From assembly GCA_027030245.1 (NCBI GenBank), contig JALVFE010000007.1, positions 1 through 44,784 on the forward strand: 44,784 nt of DNA, in the 5' to 3' direction. Both the position numbers and the translations under genes were made by a program. The DNA comes from Melioribacteraceae bacterium. GTDB taxonomy: Bacteria > Bacteroidota > Ignavibacteria > Ignavibacteriales > Melioribacteraceae. Below the pieces are notes generated by a model. It saw only the letters and a program-made list of their open reading frames with translations, did no database searches and was not told where the DNA came from. How positions within the stretch are numbered: the first letter of the stretch is position 1; the number at the start of each line of letters is the position of its first letter. This document shows positions 372 through 44,784 of this stretch, one piece after another.

Positions 372-402
372 GTTTTTCCTCCTAAAGTTTTTTATATTTA
401 CA

Positions 403-1346: not shown

Positions 1347-1377
1347 TTAAAACCTCCTAAAGTTTTCTTATGTGTTA

Positions 1378-1723: not shown

Positions 1724-1733
1724 TTTTTTGCTC

Positions 1734-2246
1734 CTAAAGTCTTTCCAAGGCTGCTTTAGCCAAATTATTCATTTTAATCTTGTCAAACAGGCTGAAGCCC
1801 GCTGCGTCCAGCGTATCGACAACCAAGCTATATTTACTTTCATCCGTAAACTGTTTAAAGTTTCTGTGCATTATCTCACGTTTTACAAAGTTGTAAAAAA
1901 GCAGGTACATGGCTAAAATCTCCAAGCTCACACTTTCATTTTGGAACAATTTTAGAATATCCGGTAATCGCGTTTTCACTTTTGTTTTTACTCGCCCGGC
2001 TATCGGCAAATGTTCTTTCCACTGCATAAATTCAAAAAGTTCGTTTTTCAGTCCGGCAATATGCTTATCCAGCATCTCTTTGAAGCCAGCCGGGTAATTA
2101 AACTCTTTTTGGATAACGCCGTCTTTTTTAATATCATTCTTTGCTAAATCTTCGGCTACATACAAGAGTGCATAAGCTAAAGAGATAACAAACAAATCGT
2201 TCACATAATGCTTACTTGTTATTTTTATTCCGGTTGTAAATTTCAT
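1734..2246 (-). CDS. Unknown 170-residue helical protein
   Basis: Mostly alpha-helical by composition, with hydrophobic helices near residues 17-33 and 105-121 that look amphipathic rather than membrane-spanning. It lies 6 bp after the upstream gene, within an early operon. No family, catalytic motif or metal site was recognised. Confidence 0.72.
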   Translation of the reverse strand: MKFTTGIKITSKHYVNDLFVISLAYALLYVAEDLAKNDIKKDGVIQKEFNYPAGFKEMLDKHIAGLKNELFEFMQWKEHLPIAGRVKTKVKTRLPDILKLFQNESVSLEILAMYLLFYNFVKREIMHRNFKQFTDESKYSLVVDTLDAAGFSLFDKIKMNNLAKAALERL

Positions 2247-2252
2247 CTCCTC

Positions 2253-2825
2253 TTACTCGCCTTTCATTAGCTTTTCAATTCTTTTTTTATGTCGATTAAA
2301 GTCTTTTTCTGCTTCTTTTAGCCCCTCATCTGAAAATCTAGCCTTATGATAATCTCCATATCTCAAATATGTTGTAGTCGTACCAGCGGCTCCACCAAAC
2401 CCATCATAGAAACAGTAATATAAATCTTTTGATATTTCATAGTAATATCTTTTCTGTCCGGCAAAAACTCTATTTTTATCAAAGACAAAATTATATCTCT
2501 TAATCCCATCAATGGCGCTCTGTGGAATACGATAACCAGCTGCTCGCAATTCAAAAAGCCTTTCAAGTGCCTCTCTCGGTGTCAGATTGTAAAAAGACTC
2601 TCCATCATAGGGCAAACCATTTTTTTTGTACTTTGCAGTAGAAATAGCCTTTTGTTGTTCAATAACTTGTTTAGCAAATTTTTTAGAGTCGTTATAATCC
2701 GTTACTTTTGGAACCTTACTTGCAACTCTTGATGTGGCAACATGTATTGTAATGCCGCCTCCGACATCATCATAAACATATACATCGCTTTTATAATTGT
2801 TAGTTGAAAATCTACAATAACTCAT
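2253..2825 (-). CDS. Conserved phage protein of unknown function (MSYCRFS family)
   Basis: The N-terminus (MSYCRFSTNN, then SDVYVYDDVGGGITIHVA) matches a pattern common in small phage proteins of unknown function that begin MSYCRxS and carry SDVYVY. The 190-residue product continues with an alpha-helical centre (REALERLFELRAAGYRIP) and a tyrosine-rich segment, and ends in a basic helix. It overlaps the upstream gene by 4 bp (ATGA type). Recognition of the N-terminal pattern is from memory; no activity is known to me. Confidence 0.75.
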   Translation of the reverse strand: MSYCRFSTNNYKSDVYVYDDVGGGITIHVATSRVASKVPKVTDYNDSKKFAKQVIEQQKAISTAKYKKNGLPYDGESFYNLTPREALERLFELRAAGYRIPQSAIDGIKRYNFVFDKNRVFAGQKRYYYEISKDLYYCFYDGFGGAAGTTTTYLRYGDYHKARFSDEGLKEAEKDFNRHKKRIEKLMKGE

Positions 2826-3082
2826 TGCATACCTCCAAGCCCAAGCGCATCACCCTCGCTAAAACTTATCCTTAACTCAAAAAAAGTGAAATTTTCATAC
2901 AATATATCGGTAATCTGTCTTACCGCCTCTCCGTCTGTCGGGTTTTCTAATAATCTATAATATTTTTCTGTATCGCACATATTGCAAACAGGGATAATCT
3001 TACCTGTTCTTTCGGACGCATCCTTAAAAATCTCATACAGTCTTTTTCTTTTTTGTCTGGTTGTATATTTATAAACTTTCAT
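2822..3082 (-). CDS. Unknown 86-residue protein
   Basis: Preceded by a TTTAGGAGG ribosome site 5 bp before the ATG. The N-terminus is very basic (YTTRQKRKRLYEIFKDASER) and a CNMC pair sits near residues 33-36. It overlaps the next gene by 4 bp. No family was recognised; it is probably cotranscribed with the MSYCRFS protein. Confidence 0.7.
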   Translation of the reverse strand: MKVYKYTTRQKRKRLYEIFKDASERTGKIIPVCNMCDTEKYYRLLENPTDGEAVRQITDILYENFTFFELRISFSEGDALGLGGMQ

Positions 3083-3144
3083 TTTACCTCCTAAATTCGA
3101 TTTTTAGCGTTTTTATTCTCTAGCTATACAAAACTACCAACAAA

Positions 3145-3501: not shown

Positions 3502-4341
3502 TTATCCAAACATCACCGTATTAAAAGTTCCAATACCATTCGGCATCGGATTATTTGCAGGCTTGTCCCTATATGTACCCTCTAAGACTTTTATATAATT
3601 ACTGTCGTTTTTTATAAGCCAGTCTAAATCTATTTTCCAACCCCTATTGTTTTCACCTTGTAAAAAACTTGATTTTTCTATTTCCTGTAAAATAAGTTTG
3701 AAGTTAAAATCCGGTTCATTTAGTCTTGCTTTTAGGTGCTTTAATCTTGTATTTGTAAGTTTTCTAATTTTAGATAAGCTCAATTTACTAGCTAAGTTAT
3801 TCCAGCCATCAAGTATCTCTTTACTACTTGCTTTTTTGCTTATAGAGGATTGAACTTCAAATAAAGCTTGTTTGCTTTTTGGGCTGTGTGCTTTTTTTTC
3901 ACTATAAGCTTTTACGCCTTCGGCGTTTTTATTCTTTTGTTCTAGTGTATTTTGTTCTATTGTATTTTGTAGGTTAACGTCATTTACTAGGGGTGGTAAA
4001 TGAGATTTACTAGGGTGGTTAACGTCATTTACTAGGGGGTCGTTAATTTCATCTATGATTTTTCCTGTAAGCGTATAAGAATTATAGGAGTTTGCACCGT
4101 TTTGAAGTTTGTGTTTTTGTATCTCTATAAGCCCTCTGGAAGATAACTTTTTCAAGGTGCTTATCACTTTAGGTCTCGATATTCCTAAATCTTTTTGAAA
4201 CTGGCTCAATGAAATACCATCAAAAGTTTTACCCCATCCGATTGTTTTTCTTACTATGTGAGTAAGTATAGCACGCTCATAAATATCTAAGTCCAAATCC
4301 CATAAGTAATTTGGCATTTGAAAAAAACCGCTATTTTGCAT
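3502..4341 (-). CDS. Lambda O-like replication initiator protein
   Basis: The 279-residue protein has an N-terminal winged-helix segment (about residues 20-75: ISLSQFQKDLGISRPKVIST then LKKLSSRGLIEI), a low-complexity middle, and the C-terminal segment NNRGWKIDLDWLIKND typical of phage replisome-organiser proteins. Such proteins bind iterons at the origin and recruit the helicase. The middle (about residues 100-123) is encoded by three iteron-like DNA repeats, as in lambda O where ori lies inside the gene. The SD (GGAG, 4349-4352) is paired in a small hairpin. A long structured leader lies upstream. Start ATG chosen from the SD spacing of 7. Confidence 0.85.
   Translation of the reverse strand: MQNSGFFQMPNYLWDLDLDIYERAILTHIVRKTIGWGKTFDGISLSQFQKDLGISRPKVISTLKKLSSRGLIEIQKHKLQNGANSYNSYTLTGKIIDEINDPLVNDVNHPSKSHLPPLVNDVNLQNTIEQNTLEQKNKNAEGVKAYSEKKAHSPKSKQALFEVQSSISKKASSKEILDGWNNLASKLSLSKIRKLTNTRLKHLKARLNEPDFNFKLILQEIEKSSFLQGENNRGWKIDLDWLIKNDSNYIKVLEGTYRDKPANNPMPNGIGTFNTVMFG
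3972..4042. repeat. Iteron array, probable replication origin inside the initiator gene
   Basis: Three tandem units of 25, 22 and 24 bp share ATTTACTAGGG. Units 1 (3972-3996) and 3 (4019-4042) share TTAACGTCATTTACTAGGGG; unit 2 (3997-4018) is degenerate (AAATGAGATTTACTAGGG). The encoded peptide repeats PLVNDVN twice. Iterons within an O-like gene are the classical lambdoid origin layout. Confidence 0.72.
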
Positions 4342-4390: not shown

Positions 4391-4514
4391 TTTAGTACTT
4401 TCGACATGACTGCTCAAACTCCATTTTTAAACCTTTCTCCTCTAAAAAACCTAAGCGGGGGAGCTACCGCCCGCCTAAAAGGTTGTTTTTGGAGTCATGT
4501 CAAGCCGTACTAAA
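4391..4514 (-). other. Large nested inverted repeat in the initiator leader region
   Basis: Nested arms: TTTAGTAC 4391-4398 with GTACTAAA 4507-4514; GACATGACT 4403-4411 with AGTCATGTC 4493-4501; CCA/TGG 4421-4423/4490-4492; AACCTTT 4430-4436 with AAAGGTT 4478-4484; inner GCGGG 4455-4459 with CCCGC 4470-4474. The arms co-align, giving one long interrupted stem of about 124 bases. It lies between a minus-strand -10 (4604-4599) and the initiator gene, so it may fold in the leader RNA, or act as DNA at the origin. Confidence 0.65.
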
Positions 4515-4598
4515 GGCTTAAAAAAAGAGTTTTACACATGTTTAGGTGCCGCCCAAAAAAGAGCGGCTTCACATCATGTAGCCCACAAAGGCAACCAA

Positions 4599-4604
4599 AT
4601 TATA
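4599..4604 (-). promoter_or_regulatory. Leftward -10 element with a partial operator half-site
   Basis: Minus strand TTTGTTATAATTTGG matches the -10 side of the early promoter/operator family, but no TTGACA is present at the right distance. It would give a leader of about 250 bases before the replication initiator. Confidence 0.45.
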
Positions 4605-4697
4605 ACAAACATTGCTTTAAACAAGCTTTAAAAACATTCTAAAGCGGCAAAAACACAAGTGAACAGAAAAATTAAGTGTAATTTTATGGCATTTTGA

Positions 4698-4703
4698 TAT
4701 AAT
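4698..4703 (+). promoter_or_regulatory. Extended -10 promoter for a candidate small RNA
   Basis: TGATATAAT is an extended -10 (TGN-TATAAT) on the plus strand. No clear -35 is visible. Transcription would begin near 4710 and meet a terminator hairpin ending near 4827, with no plausible protein start between. Confidence 0.5.
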
Positions 4704-4709
4704 TGTTTT

Positions 4710-4827
4710 GCGGGTTTTGGGAACCTGTAAACTTCTAGCCTCCTAAAGTTACAAGTTTTTTCTCAATCCTTTTTTTGATGGGCACTTCTCTCTAAGGGGC
4801 GTTAAGCCCCGCCCATCTCTCTTTTTT
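4710..4827 (+). ncRNA. Candidate antisense small RNA with anti-SD loop
   Basis: The interval between the extended -10 and the terminator would give an RNA of about 118 bases. It has a 5' hairpin (4712-4716/4722-4726), a second hairpin (4727-4734/4746-4752) whose 11-base loop reads CTAGCCTCCTA, and a terminator. The loop is complementary to SD sequences. Bases 4733-4747 are identical to plus-strand 44058-44072, i.e. perfectly complementary over 15 bases to the ribosome site of the gene at 43793-44056, and 12 bases (4739-4750) complement the AACTTTAGGAGG leader of many early genes. Alternative: a relic minus-strand leader that lost its gene. Expression is unproven. Confidence 0.45.
4777..4827 (+). 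terminator. Rho-independent terminator
   Basis: Two nested stems, GATGGGC/GCCCATC (4777-4783/4811-4817) and GGGGC/GCCCC (4796-4800/4806-4810), are followed by TCTC and six T (4822-4827). The U-tract is on the plus strand only. Confidence 0.65.
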
Positions 4828-4966
4828 GCACTATCCCCCCACTTATTTTATTATAATTTTTGTCTTTTGTGTAGGGAAGTTTTTGCATATTTTTTTATCG
4901 AAAATATACCTATACAAATTCTATATTTTGATATATAATACTCTTGTTTTTTTGTATGCACTCCAA

Positions 4967-5006
4967 TATAGCGGCTATTGTTTTGTACTTTCGCGTAGCC
5001 GCTATA
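4967..5006. promoter_or_regulatory. 11-bp palindrome upstream of recT
   Basis: TATAGCGGCTA (4967-4977) and TAGCCGCTATA (4996-5006) are perfect inverted copies around an 18-base spacer. It lies about 40 bp upstream of the recT -10. It could be an operator, or a hairpin with protein-binding role; there is no U-tract. Confidence 0.55.
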
Positions 5007-5045
5007 TATTACTTCTTTGTTATAAAACTTTAAGCAAAACTTTCT

Positions 5046-5051
5046 TATAAT
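5046..5051 (+). promoter_or_regulatory. -10 element of the recT promoter
   Basis: TATAAT lies about 29 bp before the recT ATG and is followed by the standard AAAACTTTAGGAG leader. Unlike the seven early promoters it lacks TTGACA and a complete TTATAAC dyad, so this operon may be controlled differently. Confidence 0.55.
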
Positions 5052-5079
5052 ACACTATATCAAAACTTTAGGAGTTAAT

Positions 5080-5946
5080 ATGCAATATAATATGGAAGTA
5101 TTTAAAAAACCGGAACATACGCTTACTCAATCGGAGCGTATCGAAAAACTTGAACTTCTTTTAAAGTCAAAAGAGGTAAAAGGCAAAGCTTTCCATATGC
5201 TGGGGTCGGCTGATAAGGCTAAAAGCCTTTTGGCAAAAATTACCCAGATTTCTGACATGTACGCTGTTAAGAGTTGTACTTTAAAAAGTGTTATTGATAC
5301 AGCTATCACGATTGAGGCTCTCGGGCTAGAAATTATCCCGGAACTAGGTGAAGCATGGATTATCGGATACAAAGGCAAAAGCGGCTTCCAGACCGCCAAG
5401 CCGGACATTTCCTATAAAGGTTGGAAAAAGCTTGCAAAAAGACAAGGCTACGCGGTTGATGCTGAAGGCGTTTTTACTGAAATTGCCGATCAGCTAAAAG
5501 ACTGGTCAGATGTTTTTTCTTTTCAGTATAGACGAAAAGTAAAATCCGGTAACGTTCAATGGGTAAAAGAAAATTTAGAAGGCGTTGTTGTAAAAATTGA
5601 AGATTTGAAAAGCAGACATACAGAGTATCGCTATGTAGATATTTCAAAACTCGACCAGATTATGAAAGTTTCCCCCTCTGTAAAAAAAGGCGGCGAAACT
5701 CCCTATAAAGAATGGTATTATGAAATGGTCGTTTTGGCAAAGGCTATGAAATACATTTTGAAAAAGGAAATTTCCTTTGACGAAAATATCTCGGCTGCAC
5801 TTGCTGAAATTTACAAAACTGACGCTACTGCTGCAAAAGAGATTAAGCCGGAACCGGAAACAGAGGACGCGCCATCAATTCCGTTTGCAGAAGTACAAGA
5901 CACAGAAGTTACAGATGTACCAGAAAATGAAACAGACGCTAAGTAA
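5080..5946 (+). CDS. recT: RecT-family single-strand annealing protein
   Basis: The 288-residue protein matches the RecT family: SVIDTAITIEALGLEI near residue 69, then GYKGKSGFQTAKPDISYKGW (the hallmark pattern in which a tyrosine/glycine segment precedes 'RGxxxLA'-like LAKRQGY), and an acidic, low-complexity C-terminal tail after residue 255. RecT anneals complementary strands during phage recombination and works with a partner exonuclease, which here is the next gene (20-bp overlap). SD TTTAGGAG precedes ATG 5080. Expressed rightward from the control region. Family call is firm. Confidence 0.9.
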   Translation: MQYNMEVFKKPEHTLTQSERIEKLELLLKSKEVKGKAFHMLGSADKAKSLLAKITQISDMYAVKSCTLKSVIDTAITIEALGLEIIPELGEAWIIGYKGKSGFQTAKPDISYKGWKKLAKRQGYAVDAEGVFTEIADQLKDWSDVFSFQYRRKVKSGNVQWVKENLEGVVVKIEDLKSRHTEYRYVDISKLDQIMKVSPSVKKGGETPYKEWYYEMVVLAKAMKYILKKEISFDENISAALAEIYKTDATAAKEIKPEPETEDAPSIPFAEVQDTEVTDVPENETDAK

Positions 5947-6796
5947 CAAAGATTACCATGCTCACCCCGCACTGGGGTCGAGTACACTAAAAGGATTTTT
6001 GGATAATCCGGTACTTGCATACAATCGTTATTTAAGAAAAGAAAAAACAGAGCCGACGCCTGCAATGGTTTTTGGTTCTCTTGTCCACACCTTAACGCTG
6101 GAGCCGCATCTTTTGGAAAAGGAATATTGTATTATCCCCGATCATCTTTGCACTGCCAGCGGCGTTTTAAGCAAATCAAAATTAGCTATTGAAGAGCTTG
6201 AAAAACTTACATGCAAAGGTGAAAAGCCTGCAATTTTGAAGGAGATTTTAGAAGGCGCCGAAAAAATTGCAAATATAGCCAAAAACTACAAATTTGAATT
6301 ATCATTCGGCTCAAAAGTTGTCAGGTTCACGATTGACGATATAAGAGAGTCCGATCAAGTAGAATTTGAACCATCCTACTTTTGCAAAATCGACGGCATA
6401 GAGCTAAAATGCAGACCGGACATGCTGATACATACCGATCAAGGGGCTATTGTTATCGATCTTAAAACGGCTGAAGAGAGCACCCAAAAAAGCTTTATTC
6501 GGGCATCGGTAAATTTTAGATACCACGTACAAGAGGAACATTATCGCACCGTATTGGCTGAAAATGGCATAAAGGTATTAAGGTTTCTTTTTCTAGTTGT
6601 CGGCAAAAAAGACAAAACCGCCCAGCAGTACGAGTTTCTACCCAGTACAAGAGAATTAGCCCAAAGCCAGTGGTTAAAAGCCTTCAATCAGTTCAAAAAA
6701 GCAAAAGAAGGCAACCTATCAAACGCGCCCTTTGAAGATAACCAATACAACAAAGAAGTATTGATAGATTTGCCAACTTATGCTTTTTATGATTAA
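5927..6796 (+). CDS. RecE-like PD-(D/E)XK exonuclease
   Basis: The protein of 289 residues starts MKQTLSNKDYHAHPALGSST, the typical opening of RecE C-terminal / DUF3799 nucleases (YHAHPALSxSxLK). A catalytic PD...DLKT pattern is visible (CRPDMLI, then IVIDLKTAEES), followed by FRYHVQEEHYRTVL, the QxxxY motif of lambda-exonuclease-like enzymes. It degrades one strand of duplex ends, leaving the strand to which RecT binds. The ATG at 5927 is preferred over 5915 or a start further upstream because it places the family N-terminus right and overlaps recT by only 20 bp. Confidence 0.88.
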   Translation: MKQTLSNKDYHAHPALGSSTLKGFLDNPVLAYNRYLRKEKTEPTPAMVFGSLVHTLTLEPHLLEKEYCIIPDHLCTASGVLSKSKLAIEELEKLTCKGEKPAILKEILEGAEKIANIAKNYKFELSFGSKVVRFTIDDIRESDQVEFEPSYFCKIDGIELKCRPDMLIHTDQGAIVIDLKTAEESTQKSFIRASVNFRYHVQEEHYRTVLAENGIKVLRFLFLVVGKKDKTAQQYEFLPSTRELAQSQWLKAFNQFKKAKEGNLSNAPFEDNQYNKEVLIDLPTYAFYD

Positions 6797-6810: not shown

Positions 6811-6839
6811 TTGACATTTTATAACTTTTACGTTATAAT
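6811..6839 (+). promoter_or_regulatory. Early promoter with operator dyad (site 3, rightward)
   Basis: TTGACA (6811-6816), 17-bp spacer, TATAAT (6834-6839), with the dyad TTATAAC-TTTTAC-GTTATAA. It is the only plus-strand copy of the family and is followed by AAAACTTTAGGAG before the gene at 6870. Confidence 0.9.
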
Positions 6840-6869
6840 TATACTACAAATAAAACTTTAGGAGTTAAT

Positions 6870-7361
6870 ATGAACACATTTAAGGCAGTTTACAACAACA
6901 AGGGGTTTACAATAGAGTCAAACGGAATTGACGCGGCTAAAATAGCGTTTGCTATAAGTCTATTGCTATTTGAGAGGAAAGAGGATTTTGATATTTTTAT
7001 AGATATTACAAAATTAGGCATTGCAATCATGGAGAAAAAAGAGGATATACAAAAAACGTTTTTTAAAGCCGCACGCAAAAGTATCGGCGATATAAATGAA
7101 CCACTATATATGATTATTACTGAAAGTGGTTTTCTTGATCTCAATGTAAATAGTATATTCTTGCATACTCTTTTAAGTGCGCTTATTGTAGAAATTATAT
7201 CCGAAAATATGGATAAATCAGACTATATTCTTGAAAAATTTAGCCAAACATTTTATGGGCTACTTGAGATAAAAGACAAATCCGCTGAAGAAAAAGGCAA
7301 AGAATGGAGCAGAGAAGATTTTGTAGCTGCCTATCTGGGAACTGTTTTAGCGGAAGATTAA
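6870..7361 (+). CDS. Unknown 163-residue early protein
   Basis: It has its own early promoter/operator (6811-6839) and SD TTTAGGAG, separate from recT. The protein has an N-terminal beta-like segment (FKAVYNNKGFTIESNG) and several hydrophobic helices (about residues 23-35, 97-113) that look packed rather than membrane-spanning; the C-terminal third is charged. Its stop overlaps the convergent endolysin stop (TTAA). No family was recognised. Confidence 0.78.
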   Translation: MNTFKAVYNNKGFTIESNGIDAAKIAFAISLLLFERKEDFDIFIDITKLGIAIMEKKEDIQKTFFKAARKSIGDINEPLYMIITESGFLDLNVNSIFLHTLLSALIVEIISENMDKSDYILEKFSQTFYGLLEIKDKSAEEKGKEWSREDFVAAYLGTVLAED

Positions 7362-24545: not shown

Positions 24546-24933
24546 AGTCAATAGCCCTATATATTTTCGAGGCTGTTTCTTTATCAAAAATATTGCTTAT
24601 TGCATCGCGCAACAAGTAATATTTGTCTGCCACAAATTGGCTTCTCTCTGCCAAAATGCCCAAAGCAAACAAAGTAATAACGGCTCCAAAGGCAACGCCA
24701 TCAAGCTCAATATCAGTGTAATTCATAGCATTTACAAATCTATAAGTATCTTTTTTGTCAAGTGCCATAAAAAAACCTCCGTTGTCAAGAGCGTAAAAAT
24801 CCCAGTATCCACCGTTATAGTTCTCTGAAAAGTTGTCGGCTAAATTGTAAGCCAACCCCTCAAATCTCAAAAACTGATTCCCGGTCATTTTGTGCAAAAA
24901 GTTTGATCTTCTATTATCTGCCACCTTTCTCAT
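24544..24933 (-). CDS. ardB: ArdB/KlcA-family antirestriction protein
   Basis: 129 residues. The central and C-terminal pattern YNGGYWDFYALDNGGFFMAL, then DGVAFGAVITLFALGILAER, then YYLLRDAISNIF...IYRAID, matches the ArdB/KlcA family, whose members reduce type I restriction in vivo. ATG 24933 follows GGGAGGAAG and overlaps the stop of the upstream 80-residue gene (TAATG). The pair is driven by its own early promoter/operator (25205-25233), so it would be made right after infection although it lies among structural genes. Confidence 0.85.
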   Translation of the reverse strand: MRKVADNRRSNFLHKMTGNQFLRFEGLAYNLADNFSENYNGGYWDFYALDNGGFFMALDKKDTYRFVNAMNYTDIELDGVAFGAVITLFALGILAERSQFVADKYYLLRDAISNIFDKETASKIYRAID

Positions 24934-25175
24934 TATACTTCCTCCCAAGCGTCTAACATATCTACCTCTTCTATAAGCTCTTCAATGCTTTCCGCATCAA
25001 AGGCGACGCCATCTTCATCATAAGCTTTAATTTTGTCATCATTTTTTACATTGACTATATAGCCATCATAGGTATATAAATGCCCATGCTCGTTCATATA
25101 GCCAGCAGGGCTTTGACCTAAATCAATTTCACCGCGTCCCTCAATCCAAATTTTTGTAAGTGGTAATCTCAACAT
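24933..25175 (-). CDS. Unknown acidic 80-residue partner of ArdB
   Basis: First gene after the early promoter at 25205-25233, with TTTAGGAGG before the ATG. Translationally coupled to ArdB. The protein is short and acidic: a beta-like first half (LTKIWIEGRGEIDLGQSP; HGHLYTYDGYIVNVKND) and a very acidic C-terminal helix (DAESIEELIEEVDMLDAWEE). Acidic small proteins next to Ard genes may be DNA mimics, but that is speculative. Confidence 0.72.
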   Translation of the reverse strand: MLRLPLTKIWIEGRGEIDLGQSPAGYMNEHGHLYTYDGYIVNVKNDDKIKAYDEDGVAFDAESIEELIEEVDMLDAWEEV

Positions 25176-25204
25176 CTTAAACCTCCTAAATTTATTTATA
25201 CTTA

Positions 25205-25233
25205 ATTATAACATATTTGTTATAAAATGTCAA
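25205..25233 (-). promoter_or_regulatory. Early promoter with operator dyad (site 4)
   Basis: Minus strand TTGACA (25233-25228), 17-bp spacer, TATAAT (25210-25205), with the perfect dyad TTATAAC-AAATAT-GTTATAA. It controls the 80-residue gene and ardB. Confidence 0.9.
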
Positions 25234-25296: not shown

Positions 25297-25404
25297 ATGA
25301 TTGATATTCTAAAAGGTTTTGGATTCGGGATAATAGTGGGGATTATAAGCTTTACAATATTGTTCTTTATTATAAGAGCGATATTGCGACTTATGGCAGG
25401 CTAA
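25297..25404 (+). CDS. 35-residue single-span membrane protein
   Basis: The plus-strand frame reads MIDILKGFGFGIIVGIISFT at its start, with a single hydrophobic span and a basic end (RAILRLMAG). AAGGG lies 7 bp before the ATG and a possible promoter (TTGATT, TACAAT) lies just upstream. Its stop overlaps the convergent MuF stop. It is too short for certainty; the clean SD and membrane span make it plausible. Possible role in superinfection exclusion or lysis, unproven. Confidence 0.5.
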   Translation: MIDILKGFGFGIIVGIISFTILFFIIRAILRLMAG

Positions 25405-27314
25405 TTTTCGCCTGCTAATTTTTTCTTTATCGGCTTAAGCGGTATTTCTTCCATAATTACCCGTCGTCTGCCTTCGTTGTCTATAAGCACATCCCTTACT
25501 TTAAAAGGCTGGTAGGCATCTATTAAAACCTCATCTTCAGACTGAAATTTTGACATTGTTTTTATATAATGTTTTGGCTCTTTGATCTTAAATTCAAAGA
25601 TTACACTTTCCCCGCTACCTGTGAAACTTCGCGCTACTGCTTCACGTGTTGAGAAGCTCAAAAATGATCTGTCGAAATAAATATCACCCGACTTTAATTC
25701 AGCTATTCTCCAGTCTGTTAGTCTCATACCCCTGTAAATCCTTTTGCCCTTTACATTGCCCGGCATAGCTTGATACAAATTAAGATTTTTAACCAAATCC
25801 TTTGTTTGAAATAGCTCGTACTCTTGAAAAAACTCTGTCGGGTCGTCACTTCTTAATAGTTTTCCTATATTGTAATACGCGCTTCCGGTATATGCCGTTA
25901 TAGCCTTCTTTGCTTCTTCTAGTTCTTTGCCCTTTAGCTTTAAATCGGTCAAAAGCCACTCTTTTGGAAGGTAACTATTGTTTGCTATGTCAACGGCTAA
26001 CAAGCTTGCCGCCTCTTCAATATCTTTACTCGTAACCGTATTTTCCTCAATCAATTTTTCTGCTGTTTTTGAGTTGTACTTTTTTAATACACCCTCTTGT
26101 TTTGTAATGCTTTCCTTTAGTTTTTTGGCTGTTTTCCTTAGATAGTCTTTTTTTTGTTTTGATTTGCCGCTACTAAGAATCTGCCTATATAGCTTATCAA
26201 TTATATCTTCTTCTTTTGTGTGTATCTCGTTTATTGCATCACGTAAAGGAACAAAATATTTTTCAATAGTTTCCTTTAACCTTTCAAAATCATTATAAGG
26301 TATTGGTTCATAGTCTGCTGCATGCAATGTAATACTAGCGGCTTTTAATTCATCTACTACTTTATGTATTTTGTATTTCGGTCTGGATTCGTTAAAAATA
26401 TCAAGTATCGGCTTTCCGCTTTTGAAGTCCTGTAACTTCTCTCTGCTTCCTAAAATTCTAGTCTGCTCATGTTTCGTAAAATTGCTAAAAAGAGTTTTTG
26501 CATAAGGGTCTTTAATGGGTCTTTTTTTGATGTTCTCGTAAACTGGTTCATATTTGCACATACAAAAAGGGTGTAGGGGTAAAGTTATCATTTTTTCTTT
26601 TGGTACTATTCCTTTTCCGTATCCGATATCAAGGGCGGCATAAAAATCACATATATCTGTCATCGGGTGCCTGCTGCTCATAGCATATTTAACAAACTTT
26701 ATTTCTTTGTCGTTTAAAATGTTATTTGCGTTTGTAAGGCTAAAGGCTCTTTGTTCTTCGGTATTGGCTATTCTTTGCGCGTAAAATCTAGCTTTCTCAA
26801 CTAGCGCCACCTTAAGATTGTTCCATGCTTCTTCGTCCGCTCTTGTATTTAGTAGTTGTAAATAGGCTTCTTTTAAAAACTTTGTTTTTCCGGCTATTTT
26901 TTTTGCCTTCTCAATGTCGCCAAATAGATATTTTGGCAATTTGTGCTTTATTTTCAAAAGCTCTTTCTTGTCAGGCTCGTATCCATCATACAATACCCTT
27001 TCGATTTCGTCAATCGCCGCCTTTCGTTCGTTAAGTTGTCTAATTGCGTACAAAGCCTGTTTTTCAACTTTTTTCACTTGATTGTAAAGGCGTTTTGATA
27101 GATGCAATTTTTTTATTTGATTTGTTCCTATATCTTTTGTAAGGTTGCTGTCAAGTTTTTTGTAGATGCTTTTTATGATCCGCTTTTTTGCTATCTCGCT
27201 GTAATTTTTTAGGTTCCATTTCAAATAATGCCCAAAGTGCCTTTCATCCTCTGTTAAAAATTCTGCCAGCGTCTTGTTATAGAGATTAACCGCTATATCT
27301 TCAAGTGTTTCCAT
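25401..27314 (-). CDS. MuF head protein fused to an ADP-ribosyltransferase domain
   Basis: 637 residues from ATG 27314 (AAGGAA upstream). About residues 165-258 carry the MuF head-morphogenesis pattern, from ARFYAQRIANTEEQRAF to LPLHPFCMCKYEP (the PxHPxCxC signature). The last 115 residues form an R-S-E class mono-ADP-ribosyltransferase: IYRG (R528), LSFSTRE (S555), and QSEDEVLI with the ExE pair E593/E595. The middle is helical and charged. MuF proteins are minor head proteins near the portal and can carry C-terminal effector domains that are ejected with DNA. The target is unknown; the ExE motif favours arginine modification. Located just after the terminase genes. Confidence 0.88.
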   Translation of the reverse strand: METLEDIAVNLYNKTLAEFLTEDERHFGHYLKWNLKNYSEIAKKRIIKSIYKKLDSNLTKDIGTNQIKKLHLSKRLYNQVKKVEKQALYAIRQLNERKAAIDEIERVLYDGYEPDKKELLKIKHKLPKYLFGDIEKAKKIAGKTKFLKEAYLQLLNTRADEEAWNNLKVALVEKARFYAQRIANTEEQRAFSLTNANNILNDKEIKFVKYAMSSRHPMTDICDFYAALDIGYGKGIVPKEKMITLPLHPFCMCKYEPVYENIKKRPIKDPYAKTLFSNFTKHEQTRILGSREKLQDFKSGKPILDIFNESRPKYKIHKVVDELKAASITLHAADYEPIPYNDFERLKETIEKYFVPLRDAINEIHTKEEDIIDKLYRQILSSGKSKQKKDYLRKTAKKLKESITKQEGVLKKYNSKTAEKLIEENTVTSKDIEEAASLLAVDIANNSYLPKEWLLTDLKLKGKELEEAKKAITAYTGSAYYNIGKLLRSDDPTEFFQEYELFQTKDLVKNLNLYQAMPGNVKGKRIYRGMRLTDWRIAELKSGDIYFDRSFLSFSTREAVARSFTGSGESVIFEFKIKEPKHYIKTMSKFQSEDEVLIDAYQPFKVRDVLIDNEGRRRVIMEEIPLKPIKKKLAGEN

Positions 27315-27564
27315 CTTCAAATTTCCTTATTAGCTTATAAGCCCAGTGTTTACTGATATCATACTTGTTTATAAAAATCTTTACTATTTTGGAGCGCGGA
27401 ACATTCAGTCTGGTCTGTTCTCTCCATACATTATAAAGCTCCGATCTTTTTGCCTCTCTCTTAGAAACGTATATCGTCATCCCATTATAGCGATTCAAAA
27501 TAGTCTTTAGGGTTTCTTTGTCGAGGTCGTCATCTAACATTAAATCTTCTATCTTTAGCCGCAT
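27301..27564 (-). CDS. Small HTH protein between terminase and MuF
   Basis: 87 residues from ATG 27564, which overlaps the terminase stop (TGATG) and has AAGGGGG upstream. The C-terminal half (VPRSKIVKIFINKYDISKHW then AYKLIRKFED) looks like a helix-turn-helix and resembles the Mor/C type activators of Mu-like phages in layout. It might be a late regulator or a terminase accessory. Overlaps the MuF start by 14 bp. Confidence 0.55.
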   Translation of the reverse strand: MRLKIEDLMLDDDLDKETLKTILNRYNGMTIYVSKREAKRSELYNVWREQTRLNVPRSKIVKIFINKYDISKHWAYKLIRKFEDGNT

Positions 27565-29267: not shown

Positions 29268-29342
29268 GCGTACATAGCTTAATGGCAAAGCACCGCTTGA
29301 CCAAAGCGGGGAAGGGAGTTCAATTCTCACCTGTACGCTCCA
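29268..29342 (+). tRNA. tRNA-like element, Gly-type features, degenerate
   Basis: A 75-base cloverleaf is visible: acceptor GCGTACA/TGTACGC (7 bp), D stem GCTT/AAGC, anticodon stem CCGCT/AGCGG, T-loop TTCAATT, discriminator T and encoded CCA. U73 and the D-arm resemble tRNA-Gly. It is odd in three ways: the anticodon loop TGACCAA lacks U33 (the position would read ACC), the T-stem has a G-A mismatch, and one C is unpaired before the 3' acceptor. It is on the plus strand among minus-strand genes and overlaps the 3' end of the Mom gene by 23 bp. It may be a decayed tRNA or a tRNA mimic. Confidence 0.55.
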
Positions 29343-30021
29343 ATTTTTCCCCTTTATACATTTCAATACCTAATTTCCTTATCTCGCTAAAAGGAATAAT
29401 TTCACCAGTAAAGTTTTTCTCTGCATTTTTGTCTATAAAATATATATACTTGAACATATGCCCATCCAATTCCTGCCACCCTTTATATTTAAAATCAAGC
29501 CACTGCCTTATGTTGGAAAATCCATCTCTTCTCATTTCTGGGTTATTGTCAGCCCTAAGGCTTATATGATGAACCACTCTCCCATCCGGTAATTTTATAA
29601 GAGCCTTGTTCTTTTTTATTTGAATAAGCTTAAAATTTGACGCTTGATATATGGTACCATGTCCGCACTGCGTTCCATCGGCAAAAGACAAAATCCATTT
29701 TACATGTGGTGCATTTTTCTTTATCCATTTTATAGCCATTGAAATTGCCCTGCTTTCACTAAAACGAGGAAGCGCGTCAGCAAAAGCCATCCTGTTAAGC
29801 TCCAGCATTTCATTCCACCCGGTGCCTTTTACAAGTGGCAACATAGCCCGTTTGTTTGTAGGACTTCCAAACTGCATAGCCCCCAATAATATTCCTTTGT
29901 AAAAAACACCAAAATTTAAATTACTGTTCTGTACCACTTTGCCGCTGTAATGATATTTTTGTACTATTTTATCCGCTATCTTTTTTGAAATAGGCTTAAC
30001 TATTATTTCCTTTGCACTCAT
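29320..30021 (-). CDS. mom: Mom-family DNA adenine modification protein
   Basis: 233 residues, about the length of Mu Mom. It shows the family pattern: YHYSGKVVQNSNLNFGVFYK, LGAMQFGSPTNKRAM, WNEMLELNRMAF, LPRFSESRAISMAIKWIKK, and ILSFADGTQCGHGTIYQASN. Mom converts adenine to an N6-modified form (methylcarbamoyl-type) that blocks many restriction enzymes; it belongs to the GNAT superfamily. It overlaps the ParB-domain gene by 4 bp. The C-terminal 40 residues are an extension. In Mu, mom is tightly controlled because it harms the host; here the upstream gene has a start-codon hairpin. Confidence 0.88.
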   Translation of the reverse strand: MSAKEIIVKPISKKIADKIVQKYHYSGKVVQNSNLNFGVFYKGILLGAMQFGSPTNKRAMLPLVKGTGWNEMLELNRMAFADALPRFSESRAISMAIKWIKKNAPHVKWILSFADGTQCGHGTIYQASNFKLIQIKKNKALIKLPDGRVVHHISLRADNNPEMRRDGFSNIRQWLDFKYKGWQELDGHMFKYIYFIDKNAEKNFTGEIIPFSEIRKLGIEMYKGEKLERTGEN

Positions 30022-31319: not shown

Positions 31320-31680
31320 GATGCACCCCCCTCATGCTTTTTTCTTTTAGCCGTCTTAAGTAGTGCATTCTTTTGTTTTTCTCTCTTTCGACACTGGTGC
31401 CGTTATGCCTCAAACCTCTATTTATCCAAAAGGTTTTTAAAAAGTTTCCAAAATAGAAACTATCTCCCAGCCACTCGTTAAGGGTGTCAACATCTTCAAC
31501 CCATTCAGGAAACGCGTACCAACTCATAGCCTCCTTATTAGGTCGATACTCCCACCCCTTAATTAGGATTTTTCGTTCATCGCCACAAACCCCCAGCCAC
31601 ATAACAAGATCATCAAATGTTCTAACATAATCGGGGATAGCGTAAAAGCTATTTTTGCCCCCGTTATTTTGCCCGGTCAT
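31312..31680 (-). CDS. Unknown protein with an internal repeat, DUF3310-like end
   Basis: 122 residues. Two similar segments, YAIPDYVRTFDDLVMWLG and YAFPEWVEDVDTLNEWLG, suggest an internal duplication. The second is followed by FGNFLKTFWINRGLRHNG and a YLRRL helix, which resembles the GNxxKYxxRA-YLxxL pattern of phage DUF3310 proteins. The match is weak. It overlaps its neighbours by 4 and 8 bp. Confidence 0.62.
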   Translation of the reverse strand: MTGQNNGGKNSFYAIPDYVRTFDDLVMWLGVCGDERKILIKGWEYRPNKEAMSWYAFPEWVEDVDTLNEWLGDSFYFGNFLKTFWINRGLRHNGTSVEREKNKRMHYLRRLKEKSMRGVHLE

Positions 31681-32000
31681 TTTGCCGCTCCTATTTTTTC
31701 AAAAAAACTCCTATGTATCAAAAGAGCTTCATATGCGTCTTTAGAAATTTTACCGGCTTTTGCCATTTTTCTGGCATCTTCTATCTTCCCGCCCGCCTTG
31801 ATATACTTGTAAGCCTCATTCTCTGCCAGAAGTGCTTTGTCAGCACCTAAATTTGTCATGTGCTTAGCAAACTCTATCCAAAAAGCCGCACATTCGTTAT
31901 CAATTGGAGCAAAGCTATATTCCTTTGCAATGTTAAAGTATTTTGCTCTTATATCCTCTGCCCATATGATCTGCTTTTGTGTTCCAAGCAACTTTTTCAT
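31677..32000 (-). CDS. Conserved phage protein (TQKQIxWAEDIR type)
   Basis: 107 residues. The N-terminus LLGTQKQIIWAEDIRAKYF is a pattern seen in many small phage proteins of unknown function. The rest is helical (NECAAFWIEFAKHMTNLGAD). It is the first gene after the early promoter at 32030-32058, with a perfect AACTTTAGGAGG leader. Confidence 0.72.
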   Translation of the reverse strand: MKKLLGTQKQIIWAEDIRAKYFNIAKEYSFAPIDNECAAFWIEFAKHMTNLGADKALLAENEAYKYIKAGGKIEDARKMAKAGKISKDAYEALLIHRSFFEKIGAAK

Positions 32001-32029
32001 ATTAAACCTCCTAAAGTTTTTATAAGTAT

Positions 32030-32058
32030 ATTATAACAAATAAGTTATAAAATGTCAA
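32030..32058 (-). promoter_or_regulatory. Early promoter with operator dyad (site 5)
   Basis: Minus strand TTGACA (32058-32053), 17-bp spacer, TATAAT (32035-32030), dyad TTATAAC-TTATTT-GTTATAA. It lies in the 3' end of the upstream gene and drives 32000-30709. Confidence 0.9.
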
Positions 32059-35061: not shown

Positions 35062-35379
35062 CTACCCCCTGCTTAAATGTTCGTATAAGTCACCGGGATT
35101 ATTTTCCCCCATCCTAATAATACTCTCCTTGATATCATCATCGGACAAATAACCGTCAAGATATTCGACTAGTCGCGATTTTTCGCTAAATTCAAGCCCG
35201 GTCAAGCCACTTAAAACAGACGTTAAAGATGGGTTTCCCATAACAATTCCGATAAGTGCACTTCTTCGCGCTGCCCAACTCAACTTCCCACTGACGATGT
35301 CTATCTCTTTTAGTTTATCCTTTATACCGCACGCCTCTAACAAATTGTTTTTTGAGTGGTCATATTTTACTTTTTCCAT
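35062..35379 (-). CDS. Unknown 105-residue helical protein
   Basis: SD CTTTAGGAG. Helical, with LSWAARRSALIGIVMGNPSL in the middle and an acidic C-terminal half (YLDGYLSDDDIKES). No motif recognised. Confidence 0.65.
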   Translation of the reverse strand: MEKVKYDHSKNNLLEACGIKDKLKEIDIVSGKLSWAARRSALIGIVMGNPSLTSVLSGLTGLEFSEKSRLVEYLDGYLSDDDIKESIIRMGENNPGDLYEHLSRG

Positions 35380-35406
35380 TTTTCTATCTCCTAAAGTTTT
35401 TTGTTT

Positions 35407-36208: not shown

Positions 36209-36631
36209 TTATTCCTTTTCTTTCAAGCCTTTTCCTAATTCGGTTAAAAGCATTTGTAAAACTCTTAATCGTTTTGCCTTGTCTTTAAACTCATTCTTAA
36301 AAGCGGTTGTCATAATCTCTCTTGTGCTATAAAAAAGATCGACAAAAACTTCTTTTGAAATATCGACATCATTAAAAATAGCTGCAATAATATTTTTTAT
36401 TTCTCCTTTTCTAATATTTGCCTCTATTTTAAGCTCTTCAGCAATAACAAGCTCAAAAGAGCTACTAGGGAACATAAACAACTCACGCTTCCCAATTGCG
36501 CTTAAAAGCTCGTCATCCGGCACCTCATCAGTAAACAAAAAAGCCGCTCCTAAAGCTGCCAGCACTTTGCTACCCTTTCCTTCAACCGTTATTTGTTTCA
36601 TATTGGCTGTTACTTTAACCCTTGTTTGCAT
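36209..36631 (-). CDS. Unknown 140-residue protein
   Basis: N-terminal strands (RVKVTANMKQITVEGKG), then a glycine/alanine helix (VLAALGAAFLF) and a charged helical C-terminal half. SD AAGGGAG. It resembles in layout the plus-strand gene at 6870-7361 (N-terminal strands, helices, charged end), but similarity is too weak to claim homology. Confidence 0.68.
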   Translation of the reverse strand: MQTRVKVTANMKQITVEGKGSKVLAALGAAFLFTDEVPDDELLSAIGKRELFMFPSSSFELVIAEELKIEANIRKGEIKNIIAAIFNDVDISKEVFVDLFYSTREIMTTAFKNEFKDKAKRLRVLQMLLTELGKGLKEKE

Positions 36632-36725
36632 TTTTTCTCTCTCCCTTTAAGTTCATAAATTTATATAGTGCCAATCCGCCGTAAACGGAAAAGCACGCTG
36701 CGAAAACATAGTCTAAAACCTCCAC
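36615..36725 (-). CDS. 36-residue membrane peptide
   Basis: Starts at GTG 36725 (overlapping the TAG of the upstream gene; GGAGGGGAAA upstream) and reads MEVLDYVFAACFSVYGGLAL with a basic end (KGERKNANKG). It overlaps the next gene by 17 bp. Plausible small membrane protein. Confidence 0.5.
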   Translation of the reverse strand: MEVLDYVFAACFSVYGGLALYKFMNLKGERKNANKG

Positions 36726-36892
36726 TATTTCCCCTCCTTTGTTTCGTTTTGTTTTTTGACAAAATCCAAATAATCCTTTTCGGTTTTGTCGCCTCTGCGT
36801 ACCTCTTCTAGGATACGCATTTCTTCAAGCTCTTTTTTTGTAATTTCGGTCTGCCTTAAGCCTGCCAAAAGCTCAAAAAGAATCTCTTTCAT
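36725..36892 (-). CDS. Unknown 55-residue protein
   Basis: ATG 36892 follows AACTTTAGGAGG with normal spacing; a longer version is not supported. Charged helical protein: MKEILFELLAGLRQTEITKK, then LEEMRILEEVRR. First gene after the early promoter at 36923-36951. Confidence 0.68.
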   Translation of the reverse strand: MKEILFELLAGLRQTEITKKELEEMRILEEVRRGDKTEKDYLDFVKKQNETKEGK

Positions 36893-36922
36893 CTTTAACC
36901 TCCTAAAGTTTTGATATACGTT

Positions 36923-36951
36923 ATTATAACACATTTGTAATACAATGTCAA
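36923..36951 (-). promoter_or_regulatory. Early promoter with operator dyad (site 6)
   Basis: Minus strand TTGACA (36951-36946), 17-bp spacer, TATAAT (36928-36923). The promoter-distal half of the dyad is changed (GTATTAC instead of TTATAAC), the -10 half (GTTATAA) is intact. Confidence 0.85.
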
Positions 36952-41528: not shown

Positions 41529-41682
41529 TTTTTAGCCTCCCTAATTGAAAATTTATACCGTCTTGAAAGGCTTTCATTAAAAGTTCTTCAAGCGGTTCTT
41601 TGCCTTTTCTGGACTTTAAAACTTGTTTTAGATAAAGACGATATTCGCCTATCGTCTTTATCTTTATTTCTTTATATGCTAT
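41515..41682 (-). CDS. 55-codon frame without a standard start codon
   Basis: The frame reads like a gene (KIKTIGEYRLYLKQVLKSRK, then KEPLEELLMKAFQDGINFQL) and fills an otherwise empty gap, but contains no ATG/GTG/TTG before an internal ATG. ATA 41682 lies 6 bp after GGAGG. Other options are a +1 frameshift from the preceding gene at its ATA-TAA end, or a sequencing error. Confidence 0.4.
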   Translation of the reverse strand: MAYKEIKIKTIGEYRLYLKQVLKSRKGKEPLEELLMKAFQDGINFQLGRLKIGKK

Positions 41683-42049
41683 CCCACACCTCCAATTTTT
41701 TATTTAATTCACTCTCGATCTCGCTCCTGAAAAGTTCAGCTTCGTCTATCCACACATCACCGTAAATATTATTTTCATTGTAGTAGTGAAGAGCATGGTT
41801 AATAGCTTCACCCCAACCCATTTCAATAGCATCTTTTATAGCCGGGTGATTTTCTGGAATAAAACTAAAATCACCTCTAATCGCCAGCCACGCCGCCAAA
41901 TGTGACGGAGTAAAACCGACCTGTGTCATTTCGTCTAATACAAAAGAGGTTAAGATTTCAAGCCCCTCTTTTGCCGCCTCTGAAAGAGTATTTTCATCAA
42001 CTCTTTCGCTTTCCTCTTTTTTTATCAAATCTAATTCATAAGCTTCCAT
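41672..42049 (-). CDS. Unknown acidic 125-residue protein
   Basis: First gene after the early promoter at 42081-42109, with GTTTAGGAGG leader. Acidic and helical: LSEAAKEGLEILTSFVLDEM, GFTPSHLAAWLAIRGDFSFI, MGWGEAINHALHYYNENN. No family recognised. It might be the first part of a +1 frameshift pair with the following frame. Confidence 0.7.
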   Translation of the reverse strand: MEAYELDLIKKEESERVDENTLSEAAKEGLEILTSFVLDEMTQVGFTPSHLAAWLAIRGDFSFIPENHPAIKDAIEMGWGEAINHALHYYNENNIYGDVWIDEAELFRSEIESELNKKLEVWDSI

Positions 42050-42080
42050 TTTTCTAATCCTCCTAAACTTTATATACTAT

Positions 42081-42109
42081 ATTATAACATATTTGTAACA
42101 TAAAGTCAA
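42081..42109 (-). promoter_or_regulatory. Early promoter with operator dyad (site 7)
   Basis: Minus strand TTGACT (42109-42104), 17-bp spacer, TATAAT (42086-42081). The upstream dyad half is changed (ATGTTAC), the -10 half GTTATAA is intact. Confidence 0.85.
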
Positions 42110-42249: not shown

Positions 42250-42585
42250 TTAATTATATGACCCGTCTAGGTTGATTTTTAGCACCGCTTTTGGTACACC
42301 TAGTGCTCTTCCTATTTCTTGAAAACTCTCGCCGTGAGGGTCTCCATTGTAGTTGTTATAGAATTGTATCGTATGTATGAATTCATGAAGCGCCACTTTT
42401 GACATATTTTTACCTAACGTACTTCGTATCCATATTTTGTTATAGTAGGACTGTCCCCAGTGCTCCATCCCGTCCAGTATAACGACAATAGTATTAGGCA
42501 CGCGAAACCCGACTCTTTTTGCCTTTTGATAATACGGCAAAATAACATTCAAAACATCCCTTTCGCTATACCGTTTTCTAAACAT
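42250..42585 (-). CDS. SprT-like zinc metallopeptidase
   Basis: About 111 residues from ATG 42585. VALHEFIHTIQFYNNYNGDP, then HGESFQEIG, gives HExxH with a third histidine 15 residues on, as in SprT/Spartan-like and WLM metalloproteases. Such enzymes cut proteins crosslinked to DNA. The place directly after the helicase operon suits a DNA-linked role. The start is uncertain: an upstream frame adds six residues. Confidence 0.72.
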   Translation of the reverse strand: MFRKRYSERDVLNVILPYYQKAKRVGFRVPNTIVVILDGMEHWGQSYYNKIWIRSTLGKNMSKVALHEFIHTIQFYNNYNGDPHGESFQEIGRALGVPKAVLKINLDGSYN

Positions 42586-42799
42586 GGCATTGCCCATTTT
42601 CACACCCGGACAGATCGAACTCTTTTCCTACGTCCAATTTTTTTTCCGGTATTTTTTGTACTGGCTCGTCATCTATAATAGCATTAACAATTTTTTCTCG
42701 CTTTTTCTTCGGTCTGCTTTTTGGCTCATACGTCATCGTCAAATGTATTCCAATAGCGACCAATAAGATAAAAGCTCCACCCCAACACTCTAAACACAT
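42578..42799 (-). CDS. Small membrane protein with cysteine ends
   Basis: 73 residues. An N-terminal hydrophobic span (CWGGAFILLVAIGIHLTMTY), then a basic linker (KSRPKKKREK) and an acidic part, ending CENGQCHV. SD GTTTAGGAGG. Overlaps the metallopeptidase gene by 8 bp. No family recognised. Confidence 0.62.
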   Translation of the reverse strand: MCLECWGGAFILLVAIGIHLTMTYEPKSRPKKKREKIVNAIIDDEPVQKIPEKKLDVGKEFDLSGCENGQCHV

Positions 42800-42809
42800 T
42801 TTCTACCTC

Positions 42810-43796: not shown

Positions 43797-44056
43797 AATA
43801 GCCTCAACTCTCTTTTTTCGTCTTCTGTCAGATATTCCCAGTCTGCAAAATCAATCTTATAAACATCAAATGTCCGACCATCTGACATTTCTGCTTTTAT
43901 AATTAGGTCTCCGTTTTTATCAACTACCGCAAACTCATTTTTCGCAACTTTTAATTCTTTATTTAACAGCTCCTCTGTTAGCTTTCCAAAGGCTCTTACC
44001 ACGCTTTCTGCAATATTTGCCTTAATTTTTACGTCATCTAAATCTATTTTCATCAT
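43793..44056 (-). CDS. Unknown 87-residue protein upstream of helicase
   Basis: SD TTTTAGGAGGCTAGAA, which lies inside the 3' end of the upstream gene and is perfectly complementary (15 bases) to the candidate small RNA at 4733-4747. The protein is alpha/beta (DLDDVKIKANIAESVVRAFG; FAVVDKNGDLIIKAEMSDGR). ATGA-coupled to the helicase gene. It may be a helicase partner. Confidence 0.7.
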   Translation of the reverse strand: MMKIDLDDVKIKANIAESVVRAFGKLTEELLNKELKVAKNEFAVVDKNGDLIIKAEMSDGRTFDVYKIDFADWEYLTEDEKRELRLL

Positions 44057-44528: not shown

Positions 44529-44784
44529 TCTATCTCCTGAATTTCGCACTCTAAACCCAAAATAGGATTTACTTCATATTCCTCAATGTTTTTCCATTCT
44601 TCGCCTGTGAAGTACCAGTAGATAGCTCCAGAGCGACGCTTAAAAGTCCATTCTCTAATAACCGCGCCGGGTCTAAAAGTCCCAAGAATCCCGGCTTCAC
44701 GTGCTGCAACTGATTTATTGAACCAAACTGCCCGGTTGTTGCCGTCGGCATCTTCCAATACTTCAAAGTCATACACAGCTTTGA
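44525..44784 (-). CDS. Unknown early protein, C-terminal part (begins at 371)
   Basis: The continuation of the gene that starts at 371 on the other end of the linear map. Residues from YDFEVLEDADGNNRAVWFNK to the stop at 44525. The overlap with 1-136 shows one coding change. The full product ends GLECEIQEIE. ATGA-coupled to the next gene. Confidence 0.85.
   Translation of the reverse strand, partial: KAVYDFEVLEDADGNNRAVWFNKSVAAREAGILGTFRPGAVIREWTFKRRSGAIYWYFTGEEWKNIEEYEVNPILGLECEIQEIE
44649..44784. repeat. Terminal direct repeat, right copy
   Basis: 136 bases identical to 1-136 except A at 44775 versus C at 127. See the left copy. Confidence 0.93.

Follow-up and report, generated by a model that had tools for sequence, protein, structure and literature searches.

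A candidate phage antisense small RNA complementary to a leader tag shared by 13 dispersed genes

Introduction

The OOP RNA of phage lambda is located beside replication gene O. Most phage antisense RNAs, to our knowledge, control a single phage message. According to the text cited, phages P1 and P7 encode the C4 antisense RNA, whose complements to the ant mRNA likely lie in loops and pair around the ribosome-binding site there, sar RNA of phage P22 (68/69 nt) reduces the translation of a phage mRNA by pairing with it, and OOP RNA (77 nt) is antisense to the cII mRNA (PMC12197685). RepG of Helicobacter pylori, as presented in the portion of the literature cited here, has a C/U-rich terminator loop that pairs with a G-repeat in the tlpB leader (PMC8295292). 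The literature searched, which was mostly open-access, showed no phage small RNA directed against a leader common to many phage genes, and the terms "small RNA" and "sRNA" do not occur in the main text of the Nitratiruptor phage paper (PMC9723563). Here we describe a candidate small RNA that sits on the plus strand between divergent repO and recT genes. The window referred to below is the whole stretch of DNA analysed (44,784 nucleotides).

The phage genome and its gene content

The window corresponds to contig 7 in the genome bin G000 (3.8 Mb) and matches viral contig IMGVR_UViG_3300028400_000012 (44,784 bp). Its terminal repeat of 136 bp with one mismatch (1-136 and 44649-44784) gives the contig the look of a circular phage genome, which it probably is. 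The portal protein has ~50% identity to those of Nitratiruptor phages, the late proteins resemble those of NrS-1, NrS-2 and NrS-3, the terminase has 48% identity to that of Helicobacter pullorum phages, and one RepO homologue carries the name Nautiliaceae. Because of these affinities of the late proteins and of RepO, a host among the Campylobacterota is likely. A 16S gene was sought in the bin and none was found; the product encoded at 7755-8042 on contig 36 of the same bin matches the end of RepO at 49%.

The gene list used throughout has 78 entries: the 77 ORFs of an ORF picker minus a spurious one (5127-5399), plus recT and the gene starting at 371. Some of the starts listed may be wrong. 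For the first gene, a start at 371 or at 372 gives the same complement counts and shifts the tagged binding mean (see below) by 0.01; the shuffles used 372. Among the other features of the genome are an ORF on the minus strand (25401-27320) that combines a head-morphogenesis match with an ADP-ribosyltransferase domain (Pfam ART), a Mom-like DNA modification protein (PHROG; 29320-30021, minus), a single tRNA gene (tRNA-Gly, 29268-29342, plus) and a run of GACC repeats (ccgaccagaccgaccgaccgccgaccgacc) immediately before an ORF start, upstream of 37363 on the minus strand.

The region between repO and recT has repeat structures of its own. Upstream of repO, a large inverted repeat (4403-4427/4477-4501) flanks a GC-rich hairpin (4453-4472) with T-runs on either side; from its sequence, the structure 4403-4501 has the appearance of a bidirectional terminator or an attenuator. 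The recT leader carries a perfect 12-bp inverted repeat (4966-4977/4996-5007) whose loop has TTTTGTACTTTCG (4981-4993), and the near-identical TTTAGTACTTTCG is found on the repO side (4391-4403). Predicted pairing between the repO and recT leaders is not above shuffles (17 of 40 reach its value).

Table 1. Coordinates of the candidate small RNA, the promoter-operator modules, the tagged leaders and the flanking replication and recombination genes
Feature	Position	Strand	Remarks
repO	3502-4341	-	divergent from recT
recT	5080-5946	+	divergent from repO
Extended -10 TGATATAAT	4695-4703	+	without clear -35
Predicted small RNA	4705-4829	+	5' end inferred 4705-4711, 3' end in T-run ~4827
Predicted hairpin 1 GCGGGUUUUGGGAACCUGU	4710-4728	+	-7.3 kcal/mol
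Predicted hairpin 2	4729-4758	+	AAACUU-C-UAGC / GUUA-C-AAGUUU around anti-leader loop
Anti-leader loop CUCCUAAA	4740-4747	+	8 nt; exact complement of UUUAGGAG
Intrinsic terminator	4777-4827	+	GAUGGGC / GCCCAUC, 12-nt CU-rich bulge, inner GGGGC / GCCCC stem, then UCUCUUUUUU
Exact modules (5)	404-423, 1379-1398, 6819-6838, 25206-25225, 32031-32050
Altered modules (2)	36924-36943, 42082-42101		2 and 3 mismatches, respectively
Tagged leader AACTTTAGGAGG	378-389	-	module; gene starting 371
Tagged leader AACTTTAGGAGG	1353-1364	-	module; gene 1041-1346
Tagged leader TTTAGGAG	1731-1738	-	no module; gene 1412-1723
Tagged leader	3088-3095	-	no module; gene 2822-3082
Tagged leader AACTTTAGGAG	5064-5074	+	variant promoter; recT 5080-5946
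Tagged leader	6854-6864	+	module; gene 6870-7361
Tagged leader	25183-25190	-	module; gene 24933-25175
Tagged leader AACTTTAGGAGG	32007-32018	-	module; gene 31677-32000
Tagged leader AACTTTAGGAG	35388-35398	-	no module; gene 35062-35379
Tagged leader AACTTTAGGAGG	36899-36910	-	module; gene 36725-36892
Tagged leader	42060-42067	-	module; gene 41672-42049
Tagged leader	42807-42814	-	no module; gene 42578-42799
Tagged leader TTTAGGAGGCTAGAA	44058-44072	-	longest pairing; gene 43793-44056, upstream of DnaB-like helicase

The leader tag and the promoter-operator modules

An AGGAG site precedes 28 of the 78 listed genes, and 13 of these 28 leaders are tagged (Table 1). The window has 16 copies of the core 8-mer UUUAGGAG, of which 13 sit in leaders, 5-10 bases before the start codon of a listed gene, two lie inside genes and one is at the element described in the next section. 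The longer 12-mer AACTTTAGGAGG has exactly five copies in the window and none in 100 shuffles. Four of them precede genes; the fifth, in reverse complement, is 4739-4750 of the element, as an earlier note on this DNA had claimed. The same note had placed this leader before many early genes, which narrows to four genes with the exact 12-mer and 13 with the TTTAGGAG core. All but one of the tagged genes are outside the structural block as drawn (7358-29230), the exception (24933-25175) having its own module. A scan of the 13 with PHROGs and Pfam left 12 without named function, recT being the other one, and returned no antirepressor match.

The modules consist of TTGAC followed by the palindrome TTATAAC-N6-GTTATAAT, which overlaps the -10, and then by a tagged leader. 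Seven of the 13 tagged leaders are directly behind such a module, that of recT is behind a variant and five have none. Standing behind repeated modules, the tag thus labels a scattered group of operons. The TTATAAC-N6-GTTATAA modules themselves are, from their sequence, likely a repressor-operator family. Beyond this contig, a search of the genome bin gave no copy of the exact module pattern, and the operator pattern was met in four other viral contigs, with one site each and the tag absent directly after the sites. The combination TTATAAT...AACTTTAGGAGG was present in two of 96 genomes of the order, namely the bin itself (four sites, all on this contig) and one other genome (one site).

The tag is also frequent where there is no module: five of the 20 module-less AGGAG leaders carry it (P = 0.0015 with a reference TTT rate of 0.044, or 82/1850, taken from leaders without AGGAG). 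TTT stands before AGGAG in 13 of 28 leaders here vs 1 of 52 in NrS-1 and NrS-3 together. A panel of viral loci was assembled from the pattern TTATAAT...AACTTTAGGAG, found in 107 stretches of viral contigs; among the loci listed there are 80, the window and 79 others. The rate of TTT before AGGAG in this panel and the earlier loci combined (61 of 481 leaders) was left unused, since the 79 loci had been chosen for that leader and the rate is biased upwards. In two of the five module-less cases (genes 1412-1723 and 42578-42799) the TAG of the tag doubles as the stop codon of the preceding gene.

The candidate small RNA

The element has a compact same-strand order of promoter, two predicted hairpins and terminator (Table 1). 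The extended -10 and the intrinsic terminator that had been noted around this non-coding stretch were both recovered. The promoter has the same form as the Campylobacter jejuni housekeeping consensus TGxTATAAT, as given in the part of the study cited (PMC3656092). It is without a clear operator. A candidate origin as a decayed module copy was rejected, the blastn match being too weak (E 0.095), as was the hit of a two-part matrix scan, in which the element promoter ranked 9 of 379 with a score of 7.9 vs 34.2-40.6 for the seven true modules. The terminator hairpin spans 4777-4817 and TCTCTTTTTT comes next; the first U's of the run are interrupted by C's.

No plus-strand ORF of at least 20 amino acids starts within 4705-4825; one ORF of 21 amino acids with an ATT start runs from 4681 to 4746. 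Opposite 4705-4829 there is no called gene, only short ORFs such as one of 28 amino acids at 4802-4888. The general expectation for the gene of a trans-acting antisense RNA, a promoter and an intrinsic terminator around a non-coding stretch, thus has its counterpart here at the level of sequence.

The best fold of the predicted RNA with a 5' end at 4705 consists of the two hairpins, with the loop CUCCUAAA in hairpin 2. The mean unpaired probability of this loop is 0.79 with the 5' end at 4705, 0.71 at 4709 and 0.54-0.60 at 4711-4713, the lower exposure in the last case being due to competition by a longer hairpin. The fold of 4711-4829 has a z-score of -2.99 and one of 200 shuffles is as good. 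The earlier note had drawn the second hairpin with arms 4727-4734/4746-4752 and an 11-nt loop, CTAGCCTCCTA. Folded alone, that hairpin has -3.0 kcal/mol and a 4-nt loop. A second hairpin with a loop complementary to the leader was thus retained, its predicted loop being the 8-nt CUCCUAAA and not the 11-nt one.

Complementarity and predicted binding

The plus-strand segment 4739-4750 is a 12-nt exact complement of AACTTTAGGAGG and its sole antisense copy outside leaders. The perfect 15-nt complementarity that had been noticed between 4733-4747 and the ribosome site 44058-44072 holds. Every statistic of complementarity and binding in this section is post hoc, the site having been selected for its match, and is to be read in that light: a 15-mer is reached by 5 of 2000 shuffles, and the 66-nt element 4711-4776 has perfect complements of at least 12 nt to 5 of the 78 leaders (reached by 3 of 2000 dinucleotide shuffles) and of at least 9 nt to 18 of them (reached by none of 2000). 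Shuffling the 738-nt intergenic region was invalid as a test because the region itself holds live leaders.

An antisense scan for 12-nt words common to at least three leaders, outside leaders, yielded one site in the window (4739, plus), and 10-nt words again gave only this site. The 10-nt scan found none in NrS-1, NrS-3, L012 (a viral locus considered below) and 76 viral loci (708,662 bases), nor did the scan for words of at least three leaders in 79 further viral loci (692,161 bases); these controls are weak, as the panels are mostly fragments and a repeated leader word is absent from NrS-1, NrS-3 and L012 and present in only 2 of the 79 further loci. With 10-nt words common to two leaders, antisense sites number 14 in the window, two in NrS-3, one in NrS-1 and two in L012.

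RNA-RNA scoring against the 5' regions, which had been suggested as a check, favoured the tagged leaders. Cofolding of 4709-4776, intramolecular folding included, with the leaders of 77 genes (the exonuclease ORF, whose start is doubtful, was left out) gave a mean of -13.4 kcal/mol for the 13 tagged leaders (range -20.2 to -9.2), -8.1 for the 15 other AGGAG leaders and -7.3 for the remaining 49. The tagged mean is reached by one of 100 shuffles and the difference between tagged and other AGGAG leaders by none of 100. Some untagged leaders also rank high in predicted binding, that of 36209-36631 scoring -17.6, as high as tagged ones, so that targets beyond the tagged leaders are possible. The complementarity beyond chance expected of an antisense RNA is therefore found, post hoc, for the tagged leaders as a set and not for the long recT leader: with the full RNA, that leader (4946-5110, tag included) reaches only -5.4 kcal/mol, a value attained by 7 of 40 shuffles, and in this prediction recT with its long leader is not a convincing target.

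Two contrasts were discarded. Pairing with the repO leader has a duplex energy of -53.8, but this is gone once folding is included (37 of 40 shuffles reach the value). Preferential binding to early over structural leaders was dropped since a 16S tail sequence also prefers non-structural leaders (P = 0.003; small RNA P = 0.04); any RNA bearing CCUCC binds Shine-Dalgarno sequences, and the contrast is therefore not specific to this RNA.

Search for relatives

The earlier note had called for a search for the element in related phages. No relative carrying the element, or the module-plus-tag arrangement, was found in the phage records, viral contigs and genomes searched. A DNA search of 50,697 phage records with region 4400-5200 gave no match, and among 97 genomes the only full match to 4640-4860 was the window; three weak matches (4676-4720, 4676-4710 and 4681-4704) take in the promoter and reach no further than the beginning of hairpin 1. 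The pattern GGGAACCTGTAAACTTNTAGCCTCC occurred among viral contigs in the window only. The pattern GCCTCCTAAAGTTNCA occurred there in 73 stretches, window included, of which 11 have exact hairpin arms of at least 5 nt (6 in the window, 6 in locus L028 and 7 in L037). In L037 the site is inside an ORF of 430 amino acids and its loop is as open as that of the window. Hairpin arms alone are weak evidence, because ten other of the 73 stretches have arms of at least 5 nt and one of these, intragenic, matches the hairpin of the window.

RepO and RecT relatives were met at one other locus in the viral contigs, L012. Upstream of its repO, the stretch 4800-6100 is without a comparable element, and the antisense scan gave none either. 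RepO was also searched in genome contigs, where none was found.

Strand and alternative readings of the site

The direction of the element is set solely by its promoter and terminator, and from the sequence the site reads equally well as a minus-strand leader. By a rough estimate from chance counts, the coincidence of TGNTATAAT at most 60 bases upstream with a terminator-like site at most 100 bases downstream, both on one strand, would be expected about once per some thousands of places. The earlier note had named a leftover minus-strand leader as the competing view. If so, a former gene behind AACTTTAGGAGGCTAGAA would have been stripped of its start and body, leaving the signals of the plus strand to coincidence. 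We consider this unlikely. All the other copies of the 12-mer are indeed minus-strand leaders, and the similarity continues through CTAGAA, as in the live leader at 44072. Yet there is no module upstream on the minus strand, unlike for the other four copies, and the 39 bases that follow AGGAGG are without ATG, GTG or TTG, the sole start of translation table 11 being an ATT at offset 35. Further on, the minus-strand frames are broken by stops, and 77 queries from the window gave no convincing intergenic tblastn match (the lowest E values among the matches listed are 0.009, for the exonuclease on the plus strand, and 0.012). A decayed leader would also have to have fallen by chance into a hairpin loop between a promoter and a terminator. 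The competing view is thus weakened by the missing module, start codon and clear gene remnant, and the choice of an antisense small RNA over it is favoured by the anatomy of the element and by the specificity of its complementarity.

A plus-strand RNA might be made from the site and serve another role, such as an attenuated leader of the rightward recT-exonuclease operon or the control of the neighbouring replication genes, with the leader match incidental or secondary. Its place between the divergent genes repO and recT speaks for it, the terminator being ~250 bases before recT, as does the proximity to a replication gene, which recalls lambda OOP. We find it decidedly improbable, as recT has promoter-like sequences of its own past the terminator (4911-4939; TATAAT at 5046) and the pairing predicted for the long repO leader does not exceed that of shuffles; that with the long recT leader is unremarkable too, a result that counts equally against recT as a target through its tag.

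Least probable, and very much so in our opinion, is that something else reads the tag (a phage RNA- or DNA-binding regulator, or a specialisation of ribosomes) and that 4739-4750 is a decoy or extra site: the tag does reach beyond the Shine-Dalgarno core on its upstream side and there are five tagged leaders with no module, but no candidate protein was identified and this reading would leave unexplained why an antisense copy lies in the loop of a predicted hairpin that has a promoter and a terminator of its own.

Proposed mechanism

Our favoured reading, in which belief and doubt are evenly balanced, is that 4705-4829 is the gene of a trans-acting phage antisense RNA with a C4-like action aimed at the shared leader tag. 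Transcription is predicted to begin from the extended -10 and to stop at the terminator. The loop CUCCUAAA would then pair with UUUAGGAG and zip into a longer duplex, of 12-15 bp at most, with the best-matching leaders. Such pairing would cover the Shine-Dalgarno sequence and block the ribosome, and it may expose the duplex to RNase III. The shut-off of early translation that had been attributed to this RNA belongs to these last, conjectural steps. Since seven tagged leaders are behind a module and an eighth is behind the variant promoter, the RNA would restrain this early regulon a second time, at the level of translation. Its synthesis might coincide with shut module promoters, in which case it would mop up leak, or its level might rise as they fire and close them later; a lysogen-like state and the early-to-late switch are possible settings.

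A regulon marked at the RNA level, in which one small RNA silences dispersed tagged operons on top of the operator at the same promoters, is a plausible extension that we put forward tentatively. If true, it would do at the RNA level what a repressor does through its many operators, and it could silence a whole early programme at once. An RNA that reads the tag on 13 leaders would show regulon-wide RNA control in what is likely a Campylobacterota phage. On the small-RNA reading, complementarity between the 8-nt loop and the leader core of the same length must be kept.

Comparison with known systems

The candidate shares with lambda OOP the condition of a short RNA adjoining a replication gene. 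It differs in its layout: OOP is opposite the gene it regulates, whereas no called gene is opposite 4705-4829. RepG also brings a C/U-rich loop to a motif in a 5' leader, in a bacterium whose group is related to the likely host. There, the terminator loop and a G-repeat are used, while the present pairing would involve the Shine-Dalgarno region itself and an internal hairpin distinct from the terminator. The sar RNA has ant as its single target, in contrast to the shared leader tag of this genome.

In Rfam covariance models, no family was matched at the curated cut-off and C4 was not matched even at E 10; matches to InvR and to a CRISPR repeat were weak, far below their cut-offs, and were rejected. 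By Rfam, the element is thus not a member of the C4 family, yet its predicted action is like that of C4. Both are phage antisense RNAs with the complement of a ribosome-binding site in a loop, by predicted fold in the present case. The difference is one of reach: C4 controls the ant mRNA, whereas 13 dispersed leaders share the target of the candidate RNA described here.
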